Below, piece after piece: positions 26,477-44,660 of a stretch of 45,300 bases of DNA (position 1 is the stretch's first letter; each line of letters begins with the position of its first letter). The notes beneath the pieces are model-generated. The model did no database searches, was not told where the DNA came from, and worked only from the letters and a program-made list of their open reading frames with translations. Made by a program: the position numbers and the translations under genes. The DNA lies in contig CALYAC010000037.1 in assembly GCA_944393405.1 (NCBI GenBank), positions 1 to 45,300 of the forward strand, written 5' to 3'. This DNA comes from an uncultured Clostridia bacterium. Its GTDB lineage: Bacteria > Bacillota_A > Clostridia > TANB77 > CAG-508.

Positions 26477-26478
26477 AA

Positions 26479-26976: not shown

Positions 26977-26977
26977 T

Positions 26978-27719: not shown

Positions 27720-27721
27720 TT

Positions 27722-27946: not shown

Positions 27947-27962
27947 TTGCATCACCTCCAAT

Positions 27963-28403: not shown

Positions 28404-28416
28404 AATATATCCCTCC

Positions 28417-29046
28417 TTATCCTAGATGGAATACTTTCCCACCAAAAGTATCTTCAATAAATTGTATAACTCCATATGAAAAAGCATTTTCTCCAGTAAT
28501 TATACAAAAATTTCCTCTCAAAGCTTCTTGATATTCAAAATCATAATAATATCTCCACCAACCATCAACTTCATCATAGTCTTGAGATATTCCCTCGTTG
28601 CCAAAAATTTCATTTATGTCTAAATTATTTTTTGCACAAAATTCTGTTAGTTTTGCATATGCAGTTTCAACTTCTTCTTTTTTTAGTCTTTTATAATAGG
28701 TGTCATAATTGGCTCGTTTTAAAACATTATGAATTTCATCTGGAATATAAACCCCACTTGCAGACCAGAATTCGTTTCGAAAAGCTTCTGCGATTTCTTT
28801 TATTTCCCCTTCTTCAAATATTTGATAGTCTTTTATTCTTTCAGGGATATGACTTAAAAATTCCTTTTCTCCTTCTGCACATAGCTTATTCTCAACATCT
28901 TTATATACAGCAAGAATACTATCAACACAATCTTTAATTAGTTCTTTACTTAAAGGCTTACAGTATTCTGGATACTCTTTTGATTTGTCAAAAATTACAA
29001 AACTTGAACTACTTGAGTTTGTTACAAAATCACTTCTTACTTTCAT
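28417..29046 (-). CDS. FVTNSSSSS-family protein, longest member
   Basis: 209 residues from ATG 29046 (MKVRSDFVTNSSSSSFVIFDKSKEY). A longer frame from 29058 is possible. The body has two helical regions and a Trp/Tyr-rich motif (EVDGWWRYYYDFEYQEAL). It directly follows the 85-residue gene and the radical SAM gene in one operon. Confidence 0.7.
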   Translation of the reverse strand: MKVRSDFVTNSSSSSFVIFDKSKEYPEYCKPLSKELIKDCVDSILAVYKDVENKLCAEGEKEFLSHIPERIKDYQIFEEGEIKEIAEAFRNEFWSASGVYIPDEIHNVLKRANYDTYYKRLKKEEVETAYAKLTEFCAKNNLDINEIFGNEGISQDYDEVDGWWRYYYDFEYQEALRGNFCIITGENAFSYGVIQFIEDTFGGKVFHLG

Positions 29047-29047
29047 T

Positions 29048-29305
29048 TTATTTCTCACTTTCTATATCTTTGTTTTCTTTATTCTCCAACTTTTCTAATT
29101 CATTTACAAGTTCTCTGAGGTCTGAAACTATTTGCTGAACAACTTGTTTGTCATCAGTATCAAAATAATTCTTAAATATTTGCAATTGATATAGTGGATA
29201 TTGATGTTTTGTATCTACAGTTTGTGTAATACCATCTTCTCCAACTATTGTTTTATTGTAATAACTTCTTTTTATTGATAAGTCAAATCCATTACCTAAA
29301 TTCAT
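29048..29305 (-). CDS. Hypothetical protein (85 aa) between rSAM and FVTNSSSSS genes
   Basis: Short protein MNLGNGFDLSIKRSYYNKTIVGEDG... with a C-terminal charged coiled coil (LRELVNELEKLENKENKD). It overlaps the radical SAM stop by 4 nt and the next start closely follows. Its size and position could suit a radical SAM partner, but nothing in its sequence proves this. Confidence 0.6.
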   Translation of the reverse strand: MNLGNGFDLSIKRSYYNKTIVGEDGITQTVDTKHQYPLYQLQIFKNYFDTDDKQVVQQIVSDLRELVNELEKLENKENKDIESEK

Positions 29306-30579
29306 TCGTATTTCCTTTCTTCTCTATTACACAAAACAATATCTGAAATAATTGGACAACCACCATAACAGTTTTCTCTATTCTTACAGTTAGGACAAGC
29401 ATTAAATAAATGATTTCTAAATTTACTAAACACTTCTCCTTCCCAAGCTTCTTTTATTGTATGGTCATATAGGCTTACATAATAAGACTTGTTTTGATTT
29501 CCAAAACTGCAAGGCATCATATTCATTTGTGCATCTATGTATGCACTTGTCCTTGAGCCTTCACAAGTTTCTGTTGACCTAGAATCTATATTATGTGTAA
29601 AGTTTAAAATTCCTGGAACTGAACATGCATCAAATCCAATTTTAAATGGAAATTGCTGACTGTCTATCAATTCAAAAAATTCTTTTACTTCTGAGTCATT
29701 GTAGTGCAACATATTCTCTTCTTTTCCTAGACCTACTGGTTTATGTAATAGAAATACTATTGCATTTATTCCTTCTGGGAATAAGTTATTCTTTAAACGA
29801 ATAATTGCTTCTTTTATTGTATTTTTTCCAAGAACATAGTGTATATTTGTTGTAATTCCAGCATTTAAAAATTTTTGTATTGCATTATTAGTTTGTGGAT
29901 TAGTTTCTGAAAAAACTTGTGTCATTTCTGTTGGAATTCTGCTTCCATCTTCTAAGATTTGATATGATGGCATTTGTTGAATCTCTAATCTACTATATTG
30001 ACTAACTGCAACTGCTCCACATTTTTTACTGATTTCTACCTGTTCATCAGTTAAATTAAAACCACTTGTTGTATAATTTGGAATAATGTTATTACTTCTA
30101 CAATATTCAACAATTTCTTTAAAGTTCTCATGAAGATTTGGGTCTCCTGCTCCACCTAATGCAACTTGAAAAGTCTTCCCTTTACATTGGTCTATAATTG
30201 ATTTAAAGTCTTCTAACTTCATGTTCTCTCTTATAGAATTAGGGGCATTTTGATAACATTGAATTCCTGCCTTTGCACATATCCCTGCTTTACCATTTGG
30301 GCAATGCCCCATAATTCCTATATCTAAAAGACTTGGAAAACTTCTTCTAAAAGGAGAGCTTCCATCTTTACAATCTCCAGTAATCCATAAACCATCTTCT
30401 TTGTCAAAATATTCTCTAAAATGGAATTCTGGGTCTTCATATAAAACAATATTCAAATTTTCAAAGCCTTTTGTTTTCGTAATGTCTTGTGCTTCTTTGG
30501 TTGTTAGCTTAAATTGTATCCAATTTTTTGCTAATAAATTTTTAAAAAATCCTTTTTTAGTAGTTTTTTTCATTTCCAT
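29302..30579 (-). CDS. Radical SAM enzyme with SPASM-like C-terminus
   Basis: 425 residues. The cluster-binding region GHCPNGKAGICAKAGIQCYQ (C93, C101, C108) has wider spacing than the usual C-x3-C-x2-C. It is followed by a Gly-rich strand VALGGAGDPNLH and a radical SAM-like core (YTTSGFNLT, KCGAVAVSQYSR). The C-terminus holds further cysteines (CSF...CPNCKNRENCYGGCP), typical of SPASM domains that carry auxiliary iron-sulfur clusters in peptide-modifying enzymes. It heads the operon with the 85-residue gene and the five FVTNSSSSS proteins, and has its own promoter. The substrate is unknown. Confidence 0.85.
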   Translation of the reverse strand: MEMKKTTKKGFFKNLLAKNWIQFKLTTKEAQDITKTKGFENLNIVLYEDPEFHFREYFDKEDGLWITGDCKDGSSPFRRSFPSLLDIGIMGHCPNGKAGICAKAGIQCYQNAPNSIRENMKLEDFKSIIDQCKGKTFQVALGGAGDPNLHENFKEIVEYCRSNNIIPNYTTSGFNLTDEQVEISKKCGAVAVSQYSRLEIQQMPSYQILEDGSRIPTEMTQVFSETNPQTNNAIQKFLNAGITTNIHYVLGKNTIKEAIIRLKNNLFPEGINAIVFLLHKPVGLGKEENMLHYNDSEVKEFFELIDSQQFPFKIGFDACSVPGILNFTHNIDSRSTETCEGSRTSAYIDAQMNMMPCSFGNQNKSYYVSLYDHTIKEAWEGEVFSKFRNHLFNACPNCKNRENCYGGCPIISDIVLCNREERKYE

Positions 30580-33501: not shown

Positions 33502-33586
33502 TGGTGGGTATAGCAGGACTTGAACCTGCACGCCTTTCGGCATTAGCTTCTAAGGCTAACGTGTCTGCCAATTCCACCATATACCC
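33502..33586 (-). tRNA. tRNA-Leu(TAG)
   Basis: Class II tRNA with a long variable arm, acceptor GGGTATA/TATACCC, loop CTTAGAA in stem TTAGC/GCTAA. CCA is encoded. Confidence 0.92.
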
Positions 33587-33587
33587 A

Positions 33588-33917
33588 TTAATATATAACA
33601 AGTCCCATATGTTCAAATTTTACAGAATCATTTCCAATATCATAGGGACATAAAAGAACTTCATTTTTTAACATTTTTATATCATAGGTATTAATTCCAT
33701 AAAAATTTATAGGAATATTTTTAAATGTTAAAGGTAAATTAAAATCCTTGAAGTTTAAAAATGCAATATACTGCTCTTTGAATTCGTTTTTTAATTCTTG
33801 AAGAAAAGCTACATATTCTCCCATAAAGGTTTCTTTATTCACTTTTCTTTTTATAATAGATTTATTATTTTCAATTTCTTTTACTAGGTTTAATTCAAAT
33901 AATTTGTTAATTTCCAT
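33588..33917 (-). CDS. Hypothetical protein (109 aa) between tRNAs
   Basis: Unassigned protein starting MEINKLFELNLVKEIENNKS, with an aromatic centre (YIAFLNFKDFNLPLTFKNIPINFYG). The ATG at 33917 uses an AAGGAG site that touches the encoded CCA of the upstream tRNA-Gly, so tRNA processing could separate the message from its neighbours. Confidence 0.6.
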   Translation of the reverse strand: MEINKLFELNLVKEIENNKSIIKRKVNKETFMGEYVAFLQELKNEFKEQYIAFLNFKDFNLPLTFKNIPINFYGINTYDIKMLKNEVLLCPYDIGNDSVKFEHMGLVIY

Positions 33918-33929
33918 TTGCTTCTCCTT

Positions 33930-34003
33930 TGGAGCAAGTAGAGAGAATCGAACTCTCGCAATCAGGTCGGAAACATGACATTCTACCATTAAATTATACT
34001 TGC
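33930..34003 (-). tRNA. tRNA-Gly(TCC), unusual anticodon stem
   Basis: Acceptor GCAAGTA/TACTTGC, U73 and encoded CCA as for Gly. Anticodon loop TTTCCGA. The anticodon stem TCATG/CCTGA has one T-C mismatch, so function is slightly uncertain. Confidence 0.82.
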
Positions 34004-34011
34004 TTGTTTTT

Positions 34012-34100
34012 TGGTGGGGAAGGTGGGAATCGAACCCACACGAGCATTACTGCTCACTGGATTTTAAGTCCAGTGCGTCTACCAGTTCCGCCACAACCCC
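34012..34100 (-). tRNA. tRNA-Leu(TAA)
   Basis: Class II tRNA, anticodon stem CTGGA/TCCAG with loop CTTAAAA, long variable arm. The acceptor GGGGTTG/CTTCCCC has two T-T mismatches. CCA is encoded. Confidence 0.88.
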
Positions 34101-34106
34101 ATTTTT

Positions 34107-34180
34107 TGGCAGGCAAGGAAGGAATCGAACCCTCACCAAGGGTTTTGGAGACCCGTGTACTACCATTATACTACTCGCCT
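34107..34180 (-). tRNA. tRNA-Trp(CCA)
   Basis: Acceptor AGGCGAG/CTTGCCT, discriminator G, anticodon loop CTCCAAA in stem CGGGT/ACCCT, encoded CCA. Confidence 0.92.
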
Positions 34181-34184
34181 ATTT

Positions 34185-34577
34185 TTAATACCACAAATTG
34201 TGATAGTATCTTGCGAAATATTCTCTTGCTTTGTCTATCTTTTTTTGTTGTTTTATTTTAGGACAATCAACAGTAAGACTTAATTTAAAACCTTCTATCA
34301 TTGTATTTAGAATCTTATCCCATTGCTCTTGTGTCATTCCCATTGGATGTCCAACATTACAAAACTCTCTAAAATAACATAATCTTGGATAAATTAATAA
34401 ATCAAAAGTATGGTCTAAATTGAAAAATTCATATGGAGAAAATCCATATTCTGGAATATCTTTATTTCTTGGGTCATTACAAGGCTTTATTTCATTAATT
34501 ATATTTTCATTGTAATAGCCTGGTAAATCTTCTTGTGTAAATCCAAGTTCTTCTAAATATTTATTTATTTTTATCAT
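34185..34577 (-). CDS. Hypothetical protein (130 aa) in the tRNA cluster
   Basis: Unassigned protein, MIKINKYLEELGFTQEDLPGYYNENI..., rich in aromatic residues and ending with a basic helix (KIKQQKKIDKAREYFARYYHNLWY). GGAGAG is upstream of the ATG. Inserted between tRNA-Trp and tRNA-fMet. Confidence 0.65.
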   Translation of the reverse strand: MIKINKYLEELGFTQEDLPGYYNENIINEIKPCNDPRNKDIPEYGFSPYEFFNLDHTFDLLIYPRLCYFREFCNVGHPMGMTQEQWDKILNTMIEGFKLSLTVDCPKIKQQKKIDKAREYFARYYHNLWY

Positions 34578-34597
34578 AACAATCTCTCCAAAAAAAA

Positions 34598-34674
34598 TGG
34601 TTGCGAAGGGCTGGACTCGAACCAGCGACCTCTAGGTTATGAGCCTAGCGAGCTGCCAACTGCTCCACCTCGCA
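34598..34674 (-). tRNA. tRNA-Met(CAT), initiator-like
   Basis: Anticodon loop CTCATAA. The D-stem has the A11-U24 pair and the GGTGGAGCAG run typical of initiators. The first base pair is T1-A72, and only two of the three initiator G-C anticodon-stem pairs are kept. Encoded CCA. Confidence 0.85.
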
Positions 34675-34910
34675 TATAAGAGTAGGAGAGAGAAATCGTT
34701 TCCTATCACATCTAGCTCTTGCGTATACTCTGGGAAAGCTTTACCCTCACACAATTTCACAATGGTTTTAGTTCTCAGACAATCTCCATACCTAGATATT
34801 TTCCAGTCTCTTATTTTATCTGTGCACAAACTGTAACATATCCATTCTCTCTCAATTTCAGTTCCCATATATAAAATTTGACGGAAAATTAAAAATGATA
34901 TATATGGGGT

Positions 34911-34987
34911 CTTTTACTTGTATGTTGCTTTGGACGTCATTAGCTTAATAACATACTTTGCGGACTCTTCCGCCAAGACAGTAAAAG
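34911..34987 (-). ncRNA. Three-way-junction RNA element between tRNAs
   Basis: CTTTTAC (34911-34917) pairs with GTAAAAG (34981-34987), enclosing GTATGTT/AACATAC (34920-34926 with 34950-34956) and the hairpin GCGGA/TCCGC. No ORF. It lies between tRNA-fMet and tRNA-Asp on the tRNA transcript. No known family recognised. Confidence 0.45.
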
Positions 34988-34997
34988 GTGCCTTGAT

Positions 34998-35074
34998 TGG
35001 CGACTTGGATGGGACTCGAACCCACGACCTCCAATGTGACAGACTGGTGTTCTAACCAACTGAACTACCAAGCC
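34998..35074 (-). tRNA. tRNA-Asp(GTC)
   Basis: Acceptor GGCTTGG/CCAAGTC, discriminator G, anticodon loop CTGTCAC, encoded CCA. Confidence 0.92.
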
Positions 35075-35086
35075 ATAAAACTGTTA

Positions 35087-35230
35087 CCCTTTGCTCATTT
35101 AAGGAATAATCAAAGGGACTGCCGAAAAATGCTAACCTAGGAGAGAGACTTCTCCCTTTACTCCCATTATCAATACTGGAACTTTCTTGTGTCTGAAAGA
35201 GCTAAATATGCAGAGAGTTGAACGACCTCT
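35087..35230 (-). other. Structured spacer in the tRNA cluster
   Basis: No gene supported. A CCCTTTG/CAAAGGG hairpin (35087-35117) and a GGAGAG-rich stem region are visible. It follows the tRNA promoter and so is transcribed with tRNA-Asp. Confidence 0.3.
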
Positions 35231-35306
35231 CCAAACTACTAGGTATTGACTCTAGTCGAAAAGATGATAAAAATTTGAAAAGCCATTTTAATGGTTTTCT
35301 ATACAT

Positions 35307-35346
35307 ATTATAATATAATTTTTTGTTTTTGTCAAGATTTTGACAG
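35307..35346 (-). promoter_or_regulatory. Promoter and operator within the tRNA cluster
   Basis: Minus strand -35 TTGACA (35335-35330) in palindrome 35329-35346, 17-bp spacer, -10 TATAAT (35312-35307). It drives tRNA-Asp and the tRNAs downstream to 33502. Confidence 0.8.
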
Positions 35347-35384
35347 AAATTTTTATAATATATTATGCTAAAATCTTGACAAAT

Positions 35385-35475
35385 TGGCGATAGGGGTGGG
35401 GCTCGAACCCACGCTGCCATTGCTGGCACTAACAGTTTAGCAAACTGTCCTCTTCACCAACTTGAGTACCCTACC
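35385..35475 (-). tRNA. tRNA-Ser(GCT)
   Basis: Class II, acceptor GGTAGGG/CCCTATC, discriminator G, anticodon loop TTGCTAA, long variable arm, encoded CCA. Confidence 0.92.
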
Positions 35476-35591
35476 AAATGTGGAGCCAGGGTTGGTTTCT
35501 ATCGGAGTCAACATGTCTGTAACCCAGTTTTCATTTCATACACTTTAAAAGGAGCTACCTTTCAGTTATATGAAGTATATCCGAACCCAGC
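35476..35591 (-). other. Structured spacer between tRNA-Ser and tRNA-Ile
   Basis: No ORF. An AGC-AGGGTT segment near the tRNA-Ser end can pair with AACCC-AGCT near tRNA-Ile, closing an element of about 100 nt. Part of the series of folded spacers in this cluster. Confidence 0.3.
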
Positions 35592-35668
35592 TGGTAGGTG
35601 TGACTGGAATCGAACCAGTGACATCTTGCGTATCAGACAAGTGCTCTAACCAACTGAGCTACACACCT
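35592..35668 (-). tRNA. tRNA-Ile(GAT)
   Basis: Acceptor AGGTGTG/CACACCT, anticodon loop CTGATAC, encoded CCA. Confidence 0.92.
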
Positions 35669-35676
35669 ATATAAAA

Positions 35677-35973
35677 TTAACCAATTCCCCAACCAACATA
35701 TCCTTTAGCAAAATCTGGTCTATCAACTTTTTCATAACACTCTTTTTTAAAGTTCCATTTGTACCATGTAGGACTTAAATCAATTTGATGAATTCCATCT
35801 TCAATCTTTTCGATAACTACATATTCATGAATAGTTTCCCATATATCACAACGATTGTTTAATACAGTTTTTTCCGCTTCTTCAAAGGTTTCAAAGTATC
35901 CAAAACATCTCTGGTCTCTGTCTTTAAATTCTTTGTCCTCATAAGTAACTCCTGTTACAAAATAAGCAAACAT
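35677..35973 (-). CDS. Conserved hypothetical phage protein (98 aa)
   Basis: Belongs by eye to a small family common in Firmicutes and their phages: RCFGYFETFEEAEKTVLNNRCDIWETIHEYVVIEKIEDGIHQI, then WYKW. The pattern RC-x-GYF-x5-A-x3-V-x2-N-x2-D-x2-E is characteristic. The function of the family is unknown. It has a good GGGAGA site and lies between tRNA-Ile and tRNA-Ala. Confidence 0.78.
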   Translation of the reverse strand: MFAYFVTGVTYEDKEFKDRDQRCFGYFETFEEAEKTVLNNRCDIWETIHEYVVIEKIEDGIHQIDLSPTWYKWNFKKECYEKVDRPDFAKGYVGWGIG

Positions 35974-35998
35974 ATTTATTTCTCCCTTTCTAAAAATG

Positions 35999-36074
35999 TG
36001 GTGGAGTCTAAGGGAATCGAACCCTTACTCTCTGCTTGCAAAGCAGAAGTGCTAACCGTTATCACTAAGACCCC
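35999..36074 (-). tRNA. tRNA-Ala(TGC)
   Basis: Acceptor GGGGTCT/AGACTCC, anticodon loop TTTGCAA in stem TCTGC/GCAGA, encoded CCA. Confidence 0.92.
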
Positions 36075-36079
36075 ATATA

Positions 36080-36205
36080 AATATTGGGCTGTGGCATAGG
36101 CATGTCCTGCTTCCTATTAAATAATAGTTCTGGGGTAACCTACAAAACCCACGCTTATTCTCTTCTTGCCAGACAAGTGTTACCATTTCTTGCCAACCCA
36201 ATATA
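36080..36205 (-). ncRNA. Structured element closed by an AATATTGGG stem
   Basis: ATATTGGG (36081-36088) pairs with CCCAATAT (36197-36204), enclosing about 108 nt with further short stems (such as CTTG/CAAG). No ORF. Same size class as the elements at 39683 and 41152. Unknown RNA. Confidence 0.45.
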
Positions 36206-36303
36206 GATTAAAAAAACCAAAATATTTAATTGTTCCCCTTTCTCATTATATCCGAAGACACGAGCTTTCATTTGTCTGTTCCGAAGAACTCCAAAAGGGG
36301 TGG

Positions 36304-36378
36304 TGGTGACGATACCCAGAGTCGAACTGGGCACTCCAGCGTGAAAGGCTGGTGACTTAACCGATTGTCCATATCGCC
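36304..36378 (-). tRNA. tRNA-Glu(TTC)
   Basis: Acceptor GGCGATA/TATCGTC, anticodon loop CTTTCAC, encoded CCA followed by a second CCA in the DNA (36301-36303). Confidence 0.92.
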
Positions 36379-36387
36379 ATATTTTTA

Positions 36388-36463
36388 TGGTGTCCCGAAC
36401 TAGAATCGAACTAGTGACACAAGGATTTTCAGTCCTTTGCTCTACCAACTGAGCTATCGAGAC
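36388..36463 (-). tRNA. tRNA-Phe(GAA)
   Basis: Acceptor GTCTCGA/TCGGGAC, anticodon loop CTGAAAA, encoded CCA. Its 5' end overlaps the end of the upstream gene. Confidence 0.92.
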
Positions 36464-36657
36464 AAATCTTCTTTTTCTTTCTTTTCTTGATTCGAAATCA
36501 ATTCTTTCTGTTTTCCTCTAATAAATCTCATAACATCAAGGGTAGCTTCAATATAATCTAATTTCTCTTGGTCTGATAATGTTTGATTTTCATAAATATC
36601 TACACCTTTTTGTTGTATTATATTATACAAATCTTGGTAAACTTCTTCTTTTGTCAT
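36454..36657 (-). CDS. Small helical protein (67 aa)
   Basis: MTKEEVYQDLYNIIQQKGVDIYEN..., fully helical and charged, ending LISNQEKKEKEDLSR. Strong GAGGAG site. The stop codon lies inside the first bases of tRNA-Phe, so cleavage of the tRNA 5' end would trim its message. Function unknown. Confidence 0.65.
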   Translation of the reverse strand: MTKEEVYQDLYNIIQQKGVDIYENQTLSDQEKLDYIEATLDVMRFIRGKQKELISNQEKKEKEDLSR

Positions 36658-36672
36658 TAAAACTCCTCATTT

Positions 36673-36768
36673 CTAAAATAAATTTAATATCGACAATATG
36701 TTTAATAATATCATAAGAAATATAATTTTACAACAGTATTTCAATATTTTTTTAAATACTTTTCTCAT
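36673..36768 (-). CDS. Tiny membrane peptide (31 aa)
   Basis: MRKVFKKILKYCCKIIFL followed by a hydrophobic tail MILLNILSILNLF: a basic N-terminus and one TM-like helix. AAGGAG lies 6 nt before ATG. The size and layout resemble small phage membrane peptides; function unknown. Confidence 0.5.
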   Translation of the reverse strand: MRKVFKKILKYCCKIIFLMILLNILSILNLF

Positions 36769-36810
36769 AAATGTCTCCTTTTTAAGTCTTTATCTAAAAA
36801 GTATCTAAAA

Positions 36811-36886
36811 TGGTGAGTGCGAGAGGAATCGAACCTCCGACCCTTTGATTAAAAGTCAAATGCTCTACCGACTGAGCTACGCACTC
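36811..36886 (-). tRNA. tRNA-Lys(TTT)
   Basis: Acceptor GAGTGCG/CGCACTC, anticodon loop CTTTTAA in stem TTTGA/TCAAA, encoded CCA. Confidence 0.93.
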
Positions 36887-36898
36887 ATATTATGGGAA

Positions 36899-37558
36899 CT
36901 AATCCCATAAATTATAGAAATATTTCTTTAATAAATCTAATGCTTCATTTTTATATGCTACTTTATTCTCCCATATTTCTCTTTCTCTATTATAATAGTT
37001 CTCTTGAAGGTCTTTGTCTGGTTCATATTCAATTAATTGATAACCGCCTTCAACTTTTATTGTTCTTCTTTTCCACCATTTTCTAAAGCTTTCATGTTTT
37101 TTCATTTTGTGGTCTCTACCAAAAACTTGGTTAAAGTATTCTTCAGAATATTCGTTTTCTTCGAAATCTTCAAATTTATCTGCTCTTTCAAAGCAATAAG
37201 CCATTCTTAAAAGTACTAACTCCCATCTATCAGCAGGTTTGTCAATATCAAAAGGACTTGTAACCTCAATTTTATTTTGTCTTCTTCTATTTATTTCTTC
37301 AATAGTATTTTTTGTCCACTCTAATGGAAATTTTTCCACTTCCTCAAAATTTTCTTGTGGATAGCCATGAGTTGTATCTGCAAGAGAACGAATCATCTTT
37401 GAAAAAGTCCCAGTTAAGAAACAATCTAAATTCCAAACATTTTCAGCAATAAAACCTTTTCTTCTATATTCTCTAAAATTGTTTAATTCTTCTAAAGCCA
37501 TATTTGCTTTTTCTTTTTTTACTTTTCTTTTATTTCTCCATTTTCTAAAAAATCCCAT
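36899..37558 (-). CDS. Hypothetical protein (219 aa)
   Basis: Unassigned. Very basic N-terminus (MGFFRKWRNKRKVKKEKAN), a central helical part with conserved-looking aromatic/acidic segments (ADTTHGYPQENFEEVEKFPLEW, PADRWELVLLRMAYCFERADKFED) and a helical C-terminus. Similar layouts are frequent in large phages as proteins of unknown function. It follows the 48-residue gene closely. Confidence 0.7.
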   Translation of the reverse strand: MGFFRKWRNKRKVKKEKANMALEELNNFREYRRKGFIAENVWNLDCFLTGTFSKMIRSLADTTHGYPQENFEEVEKFPLEWTKNTIEEINRRRQNKIEVTSPFDIDKPADRWELVLLRMAYCFERADKFEDFEENEYSEEYFNQVFGRDHKMKKHESFRKWWKRRTIKVEGGYQLIEYEPDKDLQENYYNREREIWENKVAYKNEALDLLKKYFYNLWD

Positions 37559-37561
37559 TTT

Positions 37562-37708
37562 TCATTCCTCACTCTTATCATTTTTATTTTGAATTTTCTC
37601 CATTGCATTAAACATATTTTCAAGCATAATTTTTCCTTCAGGGCTGTTAAAATACTCTTCTGCTTCTTCGTCTGTCATTTCAAATAAAGTTTTACTTTTG
37701 TATGACAT
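37562..37708 (-). CDS. Small acidic protein (48 aa)
   Basis: MSYKSKTLFEMTDEEAEEYFNSPEGK..., acidic and helical. GAGGTG lies 7 nt before the ATG; the end runs up to the start of the 219-residue gene. Unknown function. Confidence 0.6.
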   Translation of the reverse strand: MSYKSKTLFEMTDEEAEEYFNSPEGKIMLENMFNAMEKIQNKNDKSEE

Positions 37709-37719
37709 TTGTCTTCACC

Positions 37720-38214
37720 TCATTTATTTCCAAAATATTTGTCTAAATTTATATTTTTTGTAAATATTTCATCACTATTTGCTTCTCTAATTACTATTGA
37801 AGTTCCTTGCCCTATTGTAAAGAAGTATACATATAACTTCTTGTTAAATTTAAAACAATATTTTACTCCTTCAAAAGGGAAAGAATAATCTTCATCTTTT
37901 TGTGCCCTTTGTTTTTTTCTAACTGTCTCTAAGAAGTCTCCGACATATGCAATTTTTTCTTCATTTTTGATGTCTATTTCTGTAAAATCTTTTTTGTCTG
38001 TATAAAGAAAATCTTCATTATCATATGTTTTGTTATTAAGTTTTTGTAGAAATACTTCTGTTACCCAACTAAAGTAGTTTTTATTTCCAACAAATGCAAG
38101 TCCTTCTTTTTCTTCTTTTATAATGTCATCTAAATACTTTTTAAAATCTTCTGAATTAAATAATTCTTCGACTCTTTTTCGAAAGTCTTCCATTTTTTCT
38201 TTATTATTTTCCAT
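37720..38214 (-). CDS. Hypothetical protein (164 aa)
   Basis: Unassigned, with an acidic helical N-terminal half and a beta-rich C-terminal half (KYCFKFNKKLYVYFFTIGQGTSIVIREANS). AGGAGAAATAAA precedes the ATG. It begins downstream of tRNA-Val. Confidence 0.65.
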   Translation of the reverse strand: MENNKEKMEDFRKRVEELFNSEDFKKYLDDIIKEEKEGLAFVGNKNYFSWVTEVFLQKLNNKTYDNEDFLYTDKKDFTEIDIKNEEKIAYVGDFLETVRKKQRAQKDEDYSFPFEGVKYCFKFNKKLYVYFFTIGQGTSIVIREANSDEIFTKNINLDKYFGNK

Positions 38215-38241
38215 TTTATTTCTCCTATTTGTCTAAAAGTA

Positions 38242-38317
38242 TGGTGGTCGTTGTAGGGCTCGAACCTACGACTTTTACCTTGTAAGGGTAACACTCTCCC
38301 AGCTGAGTTAAACGACC
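38242..38317 (-). tRNA. tRNA-Val(TAC)
   Basis: Acceptor GGTCGTT/AACGACC, anticodon loop CTTACAA in stem TTACC/GGTAA, encoded CCA. Confidence 0.92.
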
Positions 38318-38320
38318 TTA

Positions 38321-38398
38321 TGGTGTGCCCTGAGAGGCTCGAACTCCCGACACCAAGCTTAGAAGGCTTGTGCTCTAATCCAACTGAGCTAAGGACAC
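38321..38398 (-). tRNA. tRNA-Arg(TCT)
   Basis: Acceptor GTGTCCT/AGGGCAC, anticodon loop CTTCTAA in stem CAAGC/GCTTG, encoded CCA. Confidence 0.92.
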
Positions 38399-38654
38399 AT
38401 ATAGATAAGAGCAAAAAAACAACGAAAACTACTCTTAAATAGATTTGGAATGTTCATGCAAGGGATATGTTGACTGACCTTACATATATCTATTATAGTT
38501 TTTTCCAAAGAATAACGCCAACAAACTTTATCATTACTCTTCATTACTTTAGTTGATTTGCTAATTCACCTAACGATTAAAATCAGCCAAACCGTAGTTG
38601 TTTATATGGCTTCATTGGTACAACTAAAACCCTAACAGGTATGCCATAAACCCC
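38399..38654 (-). other. 255-nt structured spacer before tRNA-Arg
   Basis: No convincing ORF. Several alternative stems are present, including TAGTTGT (38595-38601) with ACAACTA (38620-38626), and a GTTTAT-GGC with GCCATAAAC pairing. It lies on the tRNA transcript between tRNA-Asn and tRNA-Arg. Unknown role. Confidence 0.3.
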
Positions 38655-38730
38655 TGGCTCCTCGTGCAGGGCTCGAACCTGCGACCTACAGATTAACAGT
38701 CTGCCGCTCTACCAACTGAGCTAACGAGGA
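38655..38730 (-). tRNA. tRNA-Asn(GTT)
   Basis: Acceptor TCCTCGT/ACGAGGA, anticodon loop CTGTTAA, discriminator G, encoded CCA. Confidence 0.92.
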
Positions 38731-38737
38731 ATGTATA

Positions 38738-39253
38738 TTATATATTTCTCCATGTTTGTTTATGGATAATTTGTGTGATAGTTTTATGACAAACTTTAAA
38801 TTTTCTTGCTAAAGCTCTACATCCAAATTCTGGGTCTTTAGGAATATAATTGTTTCTAATATATAAAACATCATTTTTTGTTAATTTCGCTGAGCCATTT
38901 TTTTCATTACAAACGGCTTTTGCTAAACCATTAATATAGGCATGTTGAACATTATATTTTCTACTACACCATTCTAAATTATCTACCCAATTATCTAATT
39001 TATTTCCATCCTTATGATTTATTACTGGTAGATTATCTGGATTTGGTATAAATGTTTCAGCTACAGCTCTATGGATTTTTATATTTTTCTTTTTCTTGTT
39101 TCCTAAACTAACACATACTGTAAAATATCCAGATTTAATTCTTGTTTTTTTATAAATTGTTCCAGTTTTTTCGTTTTTTAGATTTCCATGATTTGAAATA
39201 CTGAATTGAGGATATTTTTCATTTTGATAAATTAAAGTTTTCCATACTTCCAT
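38738..39253 (-). CDS. HNH homing endonuclease with NUMOD4
   Basis: Free-standing homing endonuclease, 171 residues. The N-terminal NUMOD4-like part is EVWKTLIYQNEKYPQFSISNHGNLKN. The HNH domain spans about residues 60-105 with IHRAVAETFIPNP and VINHKDGNKLDNWVDNLEWCS (the His and Asn ligands). A C-terminal HTH-like part (CRALARKFKVCHKTITQII) probably binds DNA. It sits within the tRNA cluster, a common target of homing genes. GAGGT precedes the ATG. Confidence 0.92.
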   Translation of the reverse strand: MEVWKTLIYQNEKYPQFSISNHGNLKNEKTGTIYKKTRIKSGYFTVCVSLGNKKKKNIKIHRAVAETFIPNPDNLPVINHKDGNKLDNWVDNLEWCSRKYNVQHAYINGLAKAVCNEKNGSAKLTKNDVLYIRNNYIPKDPEFGCRALARKFKVCHKTITQIIHKQTWRNI

Positions 39254-39280
39254 TTTTTACCTCTATTATTTATAAATATG

Positions 39281-39369
39281 TGGCGGAGAGTAGAGGTGTC
39301 GAACCCCCACCGCTTTCACGATGTACCTGCTTTCAAGGCAGGGTGTCAGTAGCCGCTGACATACTCTCC
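39281..39369 (-). tRNA. tRNA-Ser(TGA)
   Basis: Class II, acceptor GGAGAGT/ACTCTCC, anticodon loop CTTGAAA in stem CCTGC/GCAGG, long variable arm, encoded CCA. The D-arm is slightly unusual. Confidence 0.9.
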
Positions 39370-39378
39370 ATATTTTTA

Positions 39379-39580
39379 TTAATTTAATGTAAGGTGTCCA
39401 CATTTTTTCCATTCTTCTAATACTTCTTCATAGCCTATTCTTCCGATAATAATTTCAGAACAAATATCTTTTAAATCATAAACACAGCCACCTTCAATAC
39501 AGATTATATGAAGAAAATTATATAAATCTACAAGTCTTTTATTATGTTCTTTTTTGCTCTTGTTTATCTATTTCTTCCAT
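39379..39580 (-). pseudogene. Small gene broken at an A6 run
   Basis: ATG 39580 with AAGGAG 8 nt upstream reads MEEIDKQEQKRT and stops. Removing one A from the A6 run (39555-39550 on the minus strand) joins it to a frame that continues to 39379 (QKEHNKRLVDLYNFLHIICIEG... to EEWKKCGHLTLN), about 66 residues. A single-base frameshift, slippage site or sequencing error. The intact product would be a small helical protein of unknown function. Confidence 0.55.
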
Positions 39581-39600
39581 AAATACTACTCCTTTTTTTC

Positions 39601-39674
39601 TGGCTCCTGGGGCTAGACTCGAACTAACACTACGGGAGTCAAAGTCCCGTGTCCTACCTTTAGACGACCCAGGA
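39601..39674 (-). tRNA. tRNA-Gln(TTG)
   Basis: Acceptor TCCTGGG/CCCAGGA, anticodon loop CTTTGAC, discriminator G, encoded CCA. Confidence 0.92.
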
Positions 39675-39682
39675 ATATATCT

Positions 39683-39797
39683 AAAGCTATCTAGGCTGTT
39701 ACCTGATATACATAGCACATTCCGTCTTCTGAAAACGAGTGCTTGGTAGTTGTCTACCCACATTACAGACTATTTTCAAATCCACCTAGATAGCTTT
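39683..39797 (-). ncRNA. Structured element closed by a 13-bp helix
   Basis: AAAGCTATCTAGG (39683-39695) is a perfect inverted repeat of CCTAGATAGCTTT (39785-39797). Inside are smaller hairpins such as GGTAG/CTACC. No ORF. It lies between tRNA-Cys and tRNA-Gln on the same transcript. The long perfect closing helix argues for a real RNA; no known family recognised. Confidence 0.5.
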
Positions 39798-39802
39798 AAA
39801 AT

Positions 39803-39877
39803 TGGAGCTATCGGAGGGACTCGAACCCACGGTCACTGATTTGCAGTCAGTTGCCTTGCCAACTTGGCTACGATAGC
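39803..39877 (-). tRNA. tRNA-Cys(GCA)
   Basis: Acceptor GCTATCG/CGATAGC, U73 as expected for Cys, anticodon loop CTGCAAA, encoded CCA. Confidence 0.93.
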
Positions 39878-40185
39878 AAATCTGTAACAATATCTATATT
39901 TTCTTCAAGAAAGCTACATATTTTGCTTGTTTCTTCCATTTCATTTACCGTCATGTCGCTGTTTACAAGTTCTGGTTTAAATTTCACCATATATTTTTCT
40001 TCAAAACCAACCAAGTCTTCATCATAAAGCTTGTCTTTTGAAACTTCTATAACTACATTAAACAGTTCATAAATTGAAAATGTAACGCAATCGTCATATA
40101 TACAAATTTGTAAATCATTATATCCCTCTTGTAATATATTATTTCTAATATATTTTACTAATTCTTTAAATGAACCTACTTTCAT
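39868..40185 (-). CDS. Hypothetical protein (105 aa)
   Basis: MKVGSFKELVKYIRNNILQEGYNDLQICIYDDCVTF..., an alpha/beta protein with an acidic C-terminus. No family recognised. The end overlaps tRNA-Cys by 10 nt. The ATG at 40185 is preferred to an upstream GTG because AGGTAGG lies at a good distance. Confidence 0.62.
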   Translation of the reverse strand: MKVGSFKELVKYIRNNILQEGYNDLQICIYDDCVTFSIYELFNVVIEVSKDKLYDEDLVGFEEKYMVKFKPELVNSDMTVNEMEETSKICSFLEENIDIVTDLLS

Positions 40186-40194
40186 AAATAACAC

Positions 40195-40491
40195 CTACCT
40201 TTTTAAGTCTTTTAGCCCTTTTATTAAGCAGTCAATGTCATCTTGTCTTAAACAAATTTCATAATCAACTTGGTACTGTTTCCCTCTCATAATTTTCCAT
40301 ATTGTCTTAAATCTTTTCAAAATTCTTCTAAAAAATCCTTCTTGACTACTATAAAAAGTGTCATTATATATAGAAAGATATATTTCAGATGAAGGGTCAT
40401 CTGCAAATCTTTTTAATTCTAATCCATGAGTTCCACAATCACACTTTACATACAACAGTCTTTCATCATTTTTTTCATTATAAAGTATCAT
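40195..40491 (-). CDS. Hypothetical protein (98 aa)
   Basis: Starts MILYNEKNDERLLYVKCDCGTHGLELKRF: an N-terminal beta hairpin with CDC and His, possibly metal-binding, then a basic stretch (FFRRILKRFKTIWKIMRGK). AAAGGA upstream. Function unknown; downstream of tRNA-Tyr. Confidence 0.65.
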   Translation of the reverse strand: MILYNEKNDERLLYVKCDCGTHGLELKRFADDPSSEIYLSIYNDTFYSSQEGFFRRILKRFKTIWKIMRGKQYQVDYEICLRQDDIDCLIKGLKDLKR

Positions 40492-40525
40492 ACATTTATA
40501 CTTCCTTTCACTTATCTAAAAAAAA

Positions 40526-40611
40526 TGGTGGGTGCCCCTGGATTCGAACCAGGGAAGCCGAATGGCGTTTGATTTACAGTCAAATGCGTTTGACCACTTC
40601 GCTAGACACCC
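40526..40611 (-). tRNA. tRNA-Tyr(GTA)
   Basis: Class II, acceptor GGGTGTC/GGCACCC, anticodon loop CTGTAAA, medium-long variable arm, encoded CCA. Confidence 0.92.
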
Positions 40612-40620
40612 ATATAAAAG

Positions 40621-40979
40621 TGGTGGAGATGAGGAGAATCGAACTCCTGTCCAAATTACTTTCCAATCAAATATCTACAAGTTTAGTTTATTGTTCAATT
40701 CAACTTATATAATCACAATAAACAAAGATTTATATAAATTGCCTCTTACGGGCAGTTATCAATTCTTTCTTGAGAGGTACAGTCCAGAATTTACAGACTA
40801 TTGTTATTATGCCATTCTAAAAGTTATAGCCACCTTTTAGATGACATGCCTAACTTAGGCAGCTACTAATTCTTTGTTAGCGTTTATTTTTAATTTGTAT
40901 TCATTTTTTAAGTTCCCAGAATACATTAACTACTTGCAATTTTCTTTTCTAATAACCTGTCGAAACCAAGTACATCCCC
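40621..40979 (-). ncRNA. ssrA: Transfer-messenger RNA (tmRNA)
   Basis: Trans-translation RNA of 359 nt. The 5' end GGGGATG plus TTTCGACAGG and the 3' end with T-arm GGAG-TTCGATT-CTCC, acceptor CATCTCC and encoded CCA form the tRNA-like domain. The tag frame (40881-40855) reads ANKELVAA then TAA, inside a helix (GCCTAA/TTAGGC) as usual. It is phage-encoded, within the tRNA cluster, and would rescue stalled ribosomes or retag truncated proteins. The VAA end differs from the common LAA. Confidence 0.95.
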
Positions 40980-40982
40980 ATA

Positions 40983-41126
40983 TTATTTATTTTCATTAAA
41001 AATTCTTTCAGCACAAGTTATTTTTCTTTTTAAACCATCTTCTTGATTTAAAATTTTACAATAACCTGTTTCTTTATCAAGGTTTGAACATTTTTTGTTT
41101 TCACATTTTAAATCCATTTTTTTCAT
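40983..41126 (-). CDS. Small Cys-rich protein (47 aa) before tmRNA
   Basis: MKKMDLKCENKKCSNLDKETGYCKILNQ... with four cysteines (C-x4-C, C, C), likely a small zinc-binding or disulfide-stabilised fold. GAGGTG 6 nt before ATG. Its stop lies three bases before the tmRNA 5' end. Confidence 0.6.
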   Translation of the reverse strand: MKKMDLKCENKKCSNLDKETGYCKILNQEDGLKRKITCAERIFNENK

Positions 41127-41151
41127 ATGAAACACCTCATTTTTTAATCCT

Positions 41152-41248
41152 GTGTAAAATAAATGTGGGCAGCTTTTTCCACCTAGGCTTGGAACTTGAC
41201 AGAGGGTTTACTATATATCATAAAAAATGAAAGCTGCCTAACCTACAC
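41152..41248 (-). ncRNA. Structured element between tRNA-Gly and the Cys-rich gene
   Basis: GTGTA/TACAC and GGCAGCTTT (41168-41176) with AAAGCTGCC (41230-41238) make a two-part closing helix around about 55 nt. No ORF. Belongs to the group of folded spacers in this cluster. Confidence 0.45.
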
Positions 41249-41267
41249 TTTAAAGAGTCAAGATTTT

Positions 41268-41341
41268 TGGAGCAGGTAGTGGGAATCGAACCCACGTCAT
41301 TAGCTTGGAAGGCTAAGGTTCTACCATTGAACTACACCTGC
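41268..41341 (-). tRNA. tRNA-Gly(TCC), second copy
   Basis: Acceptor GCAGGTG/TACCTGC, U73, anticodon loop CTTCCAA in stem TTAGC/GCTAA, encoded CCA. A more regular Gly tRNA than the one at 33930. Confidence 0.92.
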
Positions 41342-41700: not shown

Positions 41701-41757
41701 CATTTCATTTTAAAATAGATATAAACCATTTATATCCTTATCTGTTAGTTTTTAAAC
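41701..41757 (-). repeat. Degenerate fourth repeat and its spacer
   Basis: 41701-41727 is a decayed copy of the array-1 repeat (CATTTCAT, ATAGATATAAAC core kept), and 41728-41757 is exactly one 30-nt spacer length before the first good repeat. A decayed terminal repeat usually marks the leader-distal end of an array. Confidence 0.6.
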
Positions 41758-41926
41758 CCTTTATACCTATGTAATTTCATATAGGTATAAAACAAAATCC
41801 AAATTTACTTCAAAAATCAAATCCCTTTACACCTATGTAATTTCATATAGGTATAAAACAAAATTAGAAAAATATTGTCTATAAAAAATACCTTTACACC
41901 TATGCAATTTCTTACAGGCATAAAAC
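41758..41926 (-). CRISPR. Mini CRISPR array 1
   Basis: Three 36-nt repeats at 41758-41793, 41824-41859 and 41891-41926 with spacers of 30 and 31 nt, plus a decayed fourth. The repeat is palindromic: arms TTTATACCTAT and ATAGGTATAAA surround a 10-nt loop. Read on the minus strand it begins GTTTTATACCT; T/C changes at position 7 become G-U pairs in minus-strand RNA, favouring that direction. The copy at 41891 has several changes but keeps the stem. It lies 110 bp past the nuclease stop. Confidence 0.82.
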
Positions 41927-41944
41927 CTCAAATTACATAAAACA

Positions 41945-42031
41945 TATTAAATTTTATACCTACTATTACATAGTCCATAGTTACCTATTTCTTAAAATAG
42001 TTTACCTATCAAGATGGTAAAGTCACCTTGT
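41945..42031 (-). ncRNA. Scaffold/tracr-like element 1
   Basis: It lies between the nuclease stop and array 1. It contains an anti-repeat (41952-41973; TTTTATACCTA then ATTACATAG on the plus strand) complementary to most of the array-1 repeat, plus a hairpin CAAG-GGT..ACC-CTTG (42010-42031) and a middle insert absent from element 2. It shares about 20 of 22 anti-repeat bases with element 2; the difference follows the change in the cognate repeat. Confidence 0.65.
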
Positions 42032-42040
42032 TAAAATCTG

Positions 42041-43852
42041 TTAGATTCCAAAAATTGTCCCACTCATTTTTTCACCATTCAATAAATCTTTAAATTTTTC
42101 TTTTAAGTATTTCTCTTGATTTGGATAAAAGATATTATCAAAAAACTCTGTAAATCCTTTGTTGTCAAAGAACCATACTTCAAATTCTCTTATTTTTCCA
42201 TTTTTTTCTTTCTTTCTTTCAATTTTAGAATAACAATACAACATTTTTGCAGCAGAATATAAATCTCGTTGTAGGACATACTGCCTCCCATTAAACTCAA
42301 TTGTTTGAAAAGTTTTACTAAAATCTTCTACTTTAAATTTATCTTTATTCTTTAAAAAATATTTTTCACTGACAATTAATCTATCATTTAAGTGTAAAAA
42401 TAAATCATTAGCTTGTGAAAAATGATTGTATGTAGATAAATTTAAGCCAGATATTTCCTTATAAGAGAGATTTTTTTCCTCACAAATATGCTTTATTCTT
42501 GCGGGAATTTGAGCCACTGCTCTATCTTGAATTTGACAACAATAATTATTGATTCTGACCTTATTGTCATATATTTCTCTTGCTATTTTGTTCATTCTAC
42601 ATAACTTTTGTTTCCAGCTTCTGATATGATTCCTCTCAGTCACTTGTTCATCTCCAAGTAAAGCAATATGTTTTGCAGTATTGAGATTATCAAACTTTCT
42701 TTTCCTTTTTAATTTTCCATATTCTGCTTTTTTATATCTTAGCAATTTTCTATAGTTGTTGGAAAAAGTATATGATAAACCATTTTCTTTTGCCTCTTTT
42801 TTCTTCATAAATACACCATTACTTTTAATTAATTTTTGATTAGAAACCATACTAGACCTAGATAAAGCCATATCAATTTGTCGTATTTTTTTTGTCACCC
42901 TTGGGGAATCTGGAGCAATTTCTACGATTTCTACATATCCATTACTACAAACAATAGCCGCTGTTTCAGTTCCATAATCAACAGCTACTTTAACTCCTTG
43001 TTGAGGGACAATATCTTCCATTTTTGTTGATTGGTTTTTAATAGAAATTTGTATTTGATATTTCCATCCATCATTTTTCCAAGACCCTCTTTTCCAAACT
43101 CTTGTTAATTTAGATTGTCCATATTGTGGAGATTTTAATATTTGACTTTGTAATGGGTCACTTTTGTTTATATAGACCTCTATTTTTAAAAATTTATGTG
43201 TAGGTACTCTTCCTCTTTCTTTTAATACTTCCCTTGCTTTTTCTACATATTCTGGAGATAAATCAAAAATAAGTGCATACATTTTTTCATTTTCGAACTC
43301 AAATTGTATTGCTGTTGACCTAGTTTTCCCATTAGGTTGGAAATAACATTTGCTTGACAAACTTGTTGCATTTCCATGTTTTTTTGTATGAATATTTTTT
43401 CCTTCTCCTTTCAAATACTTTTCAAGAGAAAAAATAATATCTTTGCAACCCTGGCTTCTAATATCATCATGCAAATAAATTTTGTATTCTGGATTAGTTT
43501 CTTTAATGAAGTTATTCATCCATTTTAAAGAATTATAATTTTCGTTTTTTAATATTTTTTGATTTCTTTTAATATAAAGGTCTCTTAGCTCTTTTCTTTT
43601 TTCAGATTCTTTTGTAACTTTACCTTCAGTTTTATGAAAGAAATTAATTCGTTTTTGTATTTCAATTAATTCTTCATCACTATTTATAATATCTTCTATT
43701 TTTTTATTTACATATTCAACAAATTCGTTTTTAAAATTTTCTAACTGATAAAACATTAGGTCTATACTTCTTTTTGCTTCTTTTGAAATGTTATTTAAGC
43801 CACAAGTTACAACATGAAAACCATTATTTTCTTCTTTTTTTGTAAACCTCAT
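42041..43852 (-). CDS. Compact TnpB/Cas12-like RuvC nuclease
   Basis: 603-residue candidate RNA-guided nuclease. The C-terminal RuvC fold shows KVAVDYGTETAAI (D292), the segment IDMALSRSSMVSNQ, LLGDEQVTERNHIRSWKQK (E406) and VLQRDLYSAAKML (D530). This is the pattern of the TnpB lineage whose last motif reads QRDLYSA. No C-x2-C zinc ribbon is seen between motifs II and III. The N-terminal about 280 residues (coiled-coil segment 30-100, then a beta-rich part) would be the guide/target-binding half. AAAGGAG lies 9 nt before ATG. No TnpA is nearby; instead CRISPR arrays lie on both sides, so it may act as a type V-like effector. The TnpB-like fold is well supported; CRISPR function is inferred. 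Confidence 0.8.
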   Translation of the reverse strand: MRFTKKEENNGFHVVTCGLNNISKEAKRSIDLMFYQLENFKNEFVEYVNKKIEDIINSDEELIEIQKRINFFHKTEGKVTKESEKRKELRDLYIKRNQKILKNENYNSLKWMNNFIKETNPEYKIYLHDDIRSQGCKDIIFSLEKYLKGEGKNIHTKKHGNATSLSSKCYFQPNGKTRSTAIQFEFENEKMYALIFDLSPEYVEKAREVLKERGRVPTHKFLKIEVYINKSDPLQSQILKSPQYGQSKLTRVWKRGSWKNDGWKYQIQISIKNQSTKMEDIVPQQGVKVAVDYGTETAAIVCSNGYVEIVEIAPDSPRVTKKIRQIDMALSRSSMVSNQKLIKSNGVFMKKKEAKENGLSYTFSNNYRKLLRYKKAEYGKLKRKRKFDNLNTAKHIALLGDEQVTERNHIRSWKQKLCRMNKIAREIYDNKVRINNYCCQIQDRAVAQIPARIKHICEEKNLSYKEISGLNLSTYNHFSQANDLFLHLNDRLIVSEKYFLKNKDKFKVEDFSKTFQTIEFNGRQYVLQRDLYSAAKMLYCYSKIERKKEKNGKIREFEVWFFDNKGFTEFFDNIFYPNQEKYLKEKFKDLLNGEKMSGTIFGI

Positions 43853-43894
43853 TTTCTTTTTCTCCTTTATAAAATATTATTTTTTTATTGCATT

Positions 43895-44062
43895 CTTTTG
43901 TATCTATGTTAAATTAGATAGATACAAAACTTTTCAGGAAGCAAGATTTAGCAAACCAGTCTTTTGCATCTATGTTAAATTAGATAGATACAAAACCCAG
44001 TTCTTCCATTTTTATCACGCTCCTTTCTTTTGCATCTATGTTAAATTAGATAGATACAAAAC
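43895..44062 (-). CRISPR. Mini CRISPR array 2
   Basis: Three 36-nt repeats at 43895-43930, 43961-43996 and 44027-44062 with two spacers of exactly 30 nt. The arms TTTTGTATCTAT and ATAGATACAAAA pair perfectly in the first repeat. It matches array 1 at about 26 of 36 positions, and differences in the stem are compensatory. It lies just upstream of the nuclease start, between it and the RNase H-like gene. Confidence 0.85.
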
Positions 44063-44070
44063 CTCAAAAA

Positions 44071-44140
44071 ATGTAATATTTTATATCTACAATTACATAG
44101 TCCGTAGTTTTACCTACCAAGACAGCAAAATTGCCTTGTT
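44071..44140 (-). ncRNA. Scaffold/tracr-like element 2
   Basis: Homologue of the element beside array 1. Anti-repeat at 44079-44100 (TTTTATATCTAC... ACATAG on the plus strand), fitting the array-2 repeat with one G-U pair; hairpin CAAG-GCA..TGC-CTTG near 44118-44140 whose inner pairs covary with element 1 (C-G versus T-A). It precedes array 2 in minus-strand direction. Confidence 0.65.
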
Positions 44141-44147
44141 TTTTATA

Positions 44148-44660
44148 TTATTTCATTTTTTCAAATTTCTTTCTTAAAGGGATATAACAATAATGGTGTG
44201 CAAAATTAAATTTCTTAGGAATATATGAAATTTTTATGTTATAACCTTGCTCTTTCATTTCATTTAATTCCTTTCTTATATTAGACATCAATAAAAGATT
44301 GTCTTCATTATAGTCATAAATATCTTGTTCCATTTTTTGTCCTTTCAATATATATTTTAAAACAAAAATACAGTCAGATTTTATACGAATAGCACATTCC
44401 TTTAAAAAGGCATTGTTTTCAATTACTCTTTTAACAGCATCTAACCCTTTTTTTATAGCCATAATTTCCATATCTATAGAGCCAGATGTCTGAAAAAGTT
44501 TAGAATAATCATATTGTAAAGCTTTAATTTTCTTTCCTTTATATTCCTTTGGAAAACAATATCCAATAGCTCCCATTCCAATATGTTGGTTATAACTTCC
44601 ATCAACATATATTCTAAACTTCTTCCCATTTAGTTTTGAATAATCTGGAGCCCAACTCAT
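44148..44660 (-). CDS. RNase H-like protein
   Basis: 170 residues with a ribonuclease HI-type fold: FRIYVDGSYNQHIGMGAIGY (D20), GSIDMEIMAIKKGL (E65) and IRIKSDCIFVLKYIL (D96), the three core acidic residues in order, then YIPKKFNFAHHY with a His. Such proteins cleave RNA in RNA-DNA hybrids or act as RVT_3-like accessory proteins. The ATG overlaps the YqeY stop. It is immediately upstream of array 2; a link to the nuclease system is possible but not shown. Confidence 0.82.
   Translation of the reverse strand: MSWAPDYSKLNGKKFRIYVDGSYNQHIGMGAIGYCFPKEYKGKKIKALQYDYSKLFQTSGSIDMEIMAIKKGLDAVKRVIENNAFLKECAIRIKSDCIFVLKYILKGQKMEQDIYDYNEDNLLLMSNIRKELNEMKEQGYNIKISYIPKKFNFAHHYCYIPLRKKFEKMK

Follow-up and report, generated by a model that had tools for sequence, protein, structure and literature searches.

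A candidate phage type V-like CRISPR locus with a TnpB-derived nuclease and a tracrRNA-like leader predicted before each array

Compact type V effectors of clustered regularly interspaced short palindromic repeats (CRISPR) systems are known from phages. According to one account, adaptation genes are generally missing from the type V systems of phages, whose targets may be rival phages, and CasPhi (Cas12j) and CasLambda (Cas12l) are phage-encoded, compact effectors beside arrays without Cas1 or Cas2 (PMC7162821). The V-U2 (C2c8) system of cyanophage CL131 likewise combines a phage TnpB-like effector with an array of 36-nucleotide (nt) repeats and no adaptation genes; that paper reports no trans-activating CRISPR RNA (tracrRNA) and spacers of 26-45 nt (PMC6293099). 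TnpB-like genes beside arrays have been noted in landfill phages (PMC12607003), and CRISPR in mobile elements has been reviewed (PMC11656645). Here we analyze a 45,300-nt stretch of DNA (the window; contig CALYAC010000037.1 of assembly GCA_944393405.1, from an uncultured Clostridia bacterium), in which the gene of a 603-residue RuvC protein lies between two short CRISPR arrays. From its sequence, we consider it probable that this locus is a compact phage type V-like CRISPR system, in which a TnpB-derived RuvC nuclease would be guided by CRISPR RNAs (crRNAs) from both flanking arrays, each headed by a tracrRNA-like leader. With its added leader and leader-repeat junction the locus is, as far as sequence comparison goes, a new variant among the TnpB-derived type V CRISPR systems that phages encode. 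A literature search of partial coverage found no paper describing this effector family or arrays that each have their own scaffold.

The effector gene and its arrays

The effector gene occupies positions 42041-43852 of the minus strand and encodes 603 amino acids (aa) from an ATG start. Array A2, 5' of the gene (43895-44062, minus), consists of three 36-nt repeats (44027-44062, 43961-43996 and 43895-43930; period 66 and 66) and two spacers of 30 nt each (43997-44026 and 43931-43960), and the segment past its last repeat runs into the effector ribosome-binding site. Array A1, 3' of the gene (41758-41926, minus), also has three repeats (41891-41926, which is degenerate, 41824-41859 and 41758-41793; period 67 and 66), with two spacers of 31 and 30 nt (41860-41890 and 41794-41823). 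The repeats of the two arrays differ. A first-pass annotation, made from the DNA letters, had placed a protein with RuvC residues D292, E406 and D530 between two arrays of 36-nt repeats with 30-31-nt spacers. Both parts are borne out, and the three acids are invariant in 10 of 10 aligned sequences.

Nine full-length relatives of the effector (P0001-P0009; 594-606 aa, 42-98% identity) and two fragments were found in the protein database. A search of IMG/VR with the family alignment added one locus out of 211 stretches, L001 (UViG_3300035498_000724, 70 kb), the single relative whose DNA was read; its effector is 33% identical to the window protein. Searching IMG/VR with the single protein gave no match, and 0 of 91 stretches from GTDB genomes gave a locus of this family. 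In L001 the effector has two arrays to either side, four in all (4757-5250, 5735-6219, 8248-8620 and 8861-9074), each with its own repeat type; their period is mostly 66 nt, and some spacers are shorter than 30 nt. A CRISPR array stands beside the RuvC effector in both loci read, and close homologues lacking arrays, which the first-pass annotation had named as evidence against its own proposal, did not appear, L001 being the one relative in which this could be seen.

Leader elements and the leader-repeat junction

All six arrays (W_A1 and W_A2 in the window, L_a1 to L_a4 in L001) are preceded by the same series of parts: hairpin 1, hairpin 2, an anti-repeat, and a linker ending in WTTTGAG. Hairpin 1 has six pairs and hairpin 2 has four, with an extension in W_A1. 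Leader A2, a predicted tracrRNA-like scaffold, lies at 44063-44138 (minus), with the arms of hairpin 1 at 44133-44138 and 44118-44123, those of hairpin 2 at 44114-44117 and 44104-44107, the anti-repeat at 44078-44100, and a linker ending in TTTTGAG. Leader A1, a predicted tracrRNA- or omegaRNA-like scaffold, lies at 41927-42030 (minus), with hairpin 1 starting from 42030, the extended hairpin 2, the anti-repeat at 41951-41973, and a linker ending in ATTTGAG. The hairpins, anti-repeat and junction had been overlooked by the first-pass annotation. We read each leader as a putative tracrRNA or natural single guide, one per array.

On a MAFFT alignment, in which the window rows are misaligned at hairpin 2, 91.2% of the 57 hairpin cells pair, and sliding the pairing partner lowers this to 51% or less. 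Six of the ten pairs change on both sides, a number reached in 1 of 500 shuffles; the covariation score of 0.50 was reached in 0 of 500, and the count of further pair types in 175 of 500. When the arms are set by hand, 36/36 and 24/24 cells pair, which 6 and 2 of 720 re-assignments equal. As to the anti-repeats, assigning each one to its own array gives the lowest total energy of all 720 assignments (-87.8 vs a mean of -63.7), and the own repeat is the best partner of the anti-repeat segment in 5 of 6 rows. Compared with 150 shuffled leaders, pairing as good was found in 2 (W_A2), 3 (W_A1), 29 (L_a1), 1 (L_a2), 19 (L_a3) and 5 (L_a4). A cognate anti-repeat together with a conserved scaffold, the pair of features by which a tracrRNA is recognized, is seen here in the sequence, with two of the six anti-repeats weak singly. 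In TnpB loci, the omegaRNA lies directly behind the gene. One leader per phage has this position, with hairpin 1 starting 10 nt past the effector stop codon in both the window and L001. CasPhi is not known to need a tracrRNA.

Searches for described relatives of the leaders gave little: no Rfam family matches them, and the 3' flank (omegaRNA) of E3-type TnpBs, which are introduced below, has no clear likeness to them when read by eye. Hairpin 1 of L_a1 is preceded, at a distance of 17 nt, by a perfect sigma-70-like promoter, but the promoter scan as a whole shows no enrichment at leaders (31 found vs 32.6 in shuffles).

A scan of viral_contigs for the leader-repeat pattern returned 39 stretches, of which four have true repeats: L015 and L030, both from the L001 contig, L021, and L024. 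L024 (UViG_3300028591_000329) carries at 1526-1760 an array of 66-nt period with the exact ATTTGAG|GTTT junction, and in its 47.6-kb record no effector of the family, no guided_TnpB and no Cas1 was found. L021 has a short array at about 12100-12340 (minus), whose repeats resemble those of type II-A and begin at a TTTGAG|GTTT junction; an integrase-like open reading frame (ORF; identified by eye) lies on the contig, which gave no Cas1 match.

Alternatively, the anti-repeat might do no more than form a hairpin between leader and repeat, which prevents unwanted crRNA or favors the first spacer, with the effector using crRNA alone. Such hairpins have been reported for II-A and VI-B (PMC13187072), and the leader of the effector-less L024 is also predicted to pair with its repeat (19.5 expected pairs), yet 76 of 150 shuffles do as well, i.e., no better than chance. 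This explanation leaves unaccounted for hairpins 1 and 2, which are kept by compensatory change and are needless for blocking, and the location of the element in the omegaRNA position. We consider it unlikely.

The leaders end in WTTTGAG before GTTT in 6 of 6 cases, with the exact ATTTGAG in W_A1, L_a1 and L_a3. This is also the leader end and repeat start of type II-A arrays of leader group 1. In a survey of type II-A loci, ATTTGAG is present in 87 of 167, 117 of the 142 loci in groups 1 and 2 retain the GAG/GTTT junction, and the last 10 nt of the leader plus the first repeat are reported to suffice for II-A adaptation (PMC5382924). Unlike II-A loci, the locus described here is without Cas9, and Cas1 is absent from the L001 record (0 of 3 viral records searched, L001 included). 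Because all six leaders carry the II-A integration junction, by analogy a host type II-A system may add spacers to the phage arrays; a precedent for borrowing the Cas1 of another type is VI-B using that of II-C (PMC8092290).

The same junction could mean that these are borrowed type II-A mini-arrays, read by a host Cas9, and that the TnpB-like gene is an unrelated neighbor. Type II-A spacing is 36/30, and here too 36-nt repeats starting with GTTT and 30-nt spacers follow the WTTTGAG|GTTT junction; L021 and L024, moreover, carry such arrays without an effector. The two phages, however, hold six repeat types, each array with its own anti-repeat, and with repeats that vary within a single phage, a lone host tracrRNA would probably not suit every array. 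Furthermore, the effector is flanked by arrays in both loci read despite 33% protein identity, and the window repeat pattern, searched as an exact match only, is absent from 84,980 genomes (and from viral contigs). We therefore hold borrowed arrays to be distinctly improbable.

If the locus is a type V-like system as proposed, leader, linker and first repeat would fold into one molecule comprising scaffold, anti-repeat, repeat and spacer 1. This joined molecule would be a naturally occurring single guide, in which the guide segment comes last (3'), as it does in the omegaRNA of TnpB. Spacers further along the array would depend on the leader RNA working in trans, in the manner of a tracrRNA. 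The omegaRNA position would have been taken over by the array that lies 3' of the effector gene. Spacers would be added by the Cas1-Cas2-Csn2 of a host type II-A system recognizing WTTTGAG|GTTT, no cas1 being found, and the guided nuclease would cut the DNA of competing phages. The route from TnpB with its one-piece omegaRNA to Cas12, whose tracrRNA and crRNA are separate molecules, is an open question, and because scaffold, anti-repeat and array appear joined behind the gene, in several diverged copies per phage, this split becomes directly testable. If a host II-A system indeed loads these arrays, the phage would be arming itself with bacterial immune memory; a nuclease of 603 aa whose guides are predicted to be self-contained might, in addition, prove useful in practice.

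Several points weigh against this proposal. The hairpin arms were chosen by hand, and the six leaders are not independent because they come from two phages. When leaders are taken at full length, the own repeat is the preferred partner in only 3 of 6, and by longest unbroken complement 64 of 720 assignments are as good. The anti-repeats of L_a1 and L_a3 are weak when taken singly, and in the predicted fold of L_a2 the repeat pairs with hairpin 1, not with the anti-repeat, which partly explains its score. Just upstream of either window leader there is no strong consensus-like promoter. The PAM (protospacer-adjacent motif) rule of Cas9 in host II-A adaptation is not obviously suited to a type V effector. 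Searched by itself, the window protein finds no model of TnpB or Cas in Pfam, NCBIfam or PADLOC, and the L001 effector (6351-8169) is split into two overlapping frames, i.e., it is broken or misassembled.

Descent of the effector from zinc-less TnpB

To place the effector, the first-pass annotation had proposed profile searches and structure prediction. With no model match for the window protein itself, a few of the nine family rows match the guided_TnpB model (two rows, best 1.3e-6), the phrog_506 'transposase' model (two rows, 5.3e-9) and the PADLOC Cas12f model (one row, 5.5e-6). In PDB sequences the window protein found no relevant match and no full-length one, Cas12f, Cas12m, Cas12n and TranC included. 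By tblastn it matches TnpB gp155 of Geobacillus virus E3 and nothing else (27% over residues 283-534, E 1e-6; this genome is present in two records). The clade of E3 gp155 is large: of 7996 proteins scored, 5043 reach E <= 1e-10. The CxxC zinc ribbon, located between RuvC-II and III, is absent from the 8 family rows, 11 E3-type and 3 gut-phage TnpBs tested, and present in 3 outgroup TnpBs.

An hhalign comparison of the family with the E3-type profile, the zinc-less clade being its only partner, gave Prob 99.9 and E 7.7e-32 over 433 columns (residues 10-542 of 603), with all three RuvC acids lined up. The two groups also share the QRDLYSA and YNHF motifs, and differ in length (about 485 aa for zinc-less TnpBs vs 603 aa). 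The family hidden Markov model matches 12 of 14 zinc-less TnpBs (7e-21 to 2e-12, calculated for a database size of 100,000), 0 of 3 outgroup TnpBs and not the V-U2 effector; in the reverse direction, the A3 profile picks up two zinc-ribbon TnpBs as well (4.6e-11 and 5.3e-6). In trees of 25 and 26 rows, which took in TnpBs and the CL131 V-U2 effector, the effector family forms one clade (100/100) and is split, together with the zinc-less TnpBs, from the outgroup at 97/98, or 98/98 with CL131 on the outgroup side; these values come with long branches (family 2.9, E3 gp153 4.0) and an oddly placed A. caldus row. The predicted structure has a TnpB/Cas12 fold (mean predicted local distance difference test 72.5, predicted template modeling score 0.49; weak stretches include residues 409-443 and 469-527). 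The fold does not choose a subtype, because TnpB and Cas12 structure matches lie close together in Z.

The descent from TnpB claimed at first pass is therefore upheld by profile alignment, small tree and predicted fold. The comparisons support a TnpB-derived effector whose nearest kin would be the zinc-less TnpB clade and not the phage V-U2 effector tested. The further claim of an independent recruitment stands relative to CL131 V-U2 in the tree, and is not shown relative to Cas12f, Cas12m and other Cas12 subtypes, which lie outside it. The CL131 effector, unlike ours, has 466 aa and a zinc ribbon, and groups with zinc-ribbon TnpBs. Of the E3-type TnpBs, 6 of 10 match the C2c8 (V-U2) model, NF038192; none of the family rows does so or falls in the CL131 clade. 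CasPhi and CasLambda give no profile match; CasPhi has about 750 aa, so that the present effector is the smaller, as had been stated, and here a leader anti-repeat heads each array. Cas12f is set apart less clearly: the one row matching its model belongs to a family without CxxC.

TnpA adjoins the E3 gp155, Pontibacillus and A. caldus TnpBs, and the copies of a C. difficile phage and of Cetobacterium have no annotated TnpA next to them; no CRISPR-like arrays were found at the 6 TnpB loci checked. In the window, the missing TnpA partner noted at first pass is confirmed for the directly flanking ORFs, which are RNase HI-like (44148-44660, minus; PF00075) and a 74-aa ORF without Pfam match; no transposase was found in them by Pfam, a search that did not extend to insertion sequence ends. 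We tentatively suggest, with more doubt than confidence, that the locus is a halfway form between transposon nuclease and CRISPR. A zinc-less TnpB would have had its omegaRNA, which still lies immediately 3' of the gene, gain an array as a replaceable guide; copies that included the scaffold would have given rise to the additional arrays, in which anti-repeats and repeats drift together, and the II-A junction would let the host load guides.

Spacers and genomic setting

For 29 of the 33 spacer segments (at least 20 nt), comparison with the window, the L001 contig and the fetched loci gave no non-self match under 6 mismatches. In the phage collection, none of the matches listed (best 25 of 38 and best 15 of 154 records) is convincing; for L_a2_s6, two Acinetobacter phage records contain an AT-rich stretch of 31 nt that matches at 93.5% (E 0.04). 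Against plasmids, the spacers of L001 array 4, the only ones compared, gave no match. Viral_contigs was scanned with the exact 5' 20-mers of 4 of the 33 spacers, with no chance control. Two of these four have partial matches in other viral contigs: the first 20 nt of W_A2_s1 match a gene-start region in 2 viral contigs of one metagenome, and the first 23 nt of L_a4_s1 match a 342-aa ORF in one foreign viral contig. W_A2_s2 has no match there, and L_a1_s1 matches itself only. The flanks of the matches share no PAM, and because only 5' halves were scanned, the scan is uninformative on seed direction.

These guides might also direct a non-cutting regulator, an effector that binds and silences its targets. 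Cas12m acts by binding (PMC11013384), and one W_A2 spacer has a Shine-Dalgarno-like stretch plus ATG, but all three RuvC acids are invariant, and we find such a role distinctly improbable.

On the minus strand, the order is RNase HI-like ORF, leader A2, array A2, effector, leader A1, array A1, tRNA-Gly, transfer-messenger RNA (tmRNA) and 19 tRNAs. The 20 tRNAs and the tmRNA form a cluster (33502-41341, minus) with the CRISPR locus at its end; in L001, too, tRNAs and a tmRNA adjoin the locus. Along with these RNA genes, the window has a DnaE-like polymerase and, by eye, primase- and helicase-like ORFs, and it seems to be a fragment of a large phage genome. The best listed relatives of the polymerase are from Bacillota phages and human-fecal phage scaffolds, and a Bacillota host is likely. 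As the first-pass annotation had stated, no adaptation gene was detected: PADLOC found none in ten other window ORFs, part of the set in a fragmentary window. Elsewhere, at 26078-29058 (minus), five ORFs (from 26078, 26978, 27345, 27963 and 28417) share an N-terminus like MKxRxSFVTNSSSSS. They adjoin an ORF (29302-30579, minus) that resembles, by eye, a SPASM radical-SAM enzyme, and the group may serve in peptide modification.
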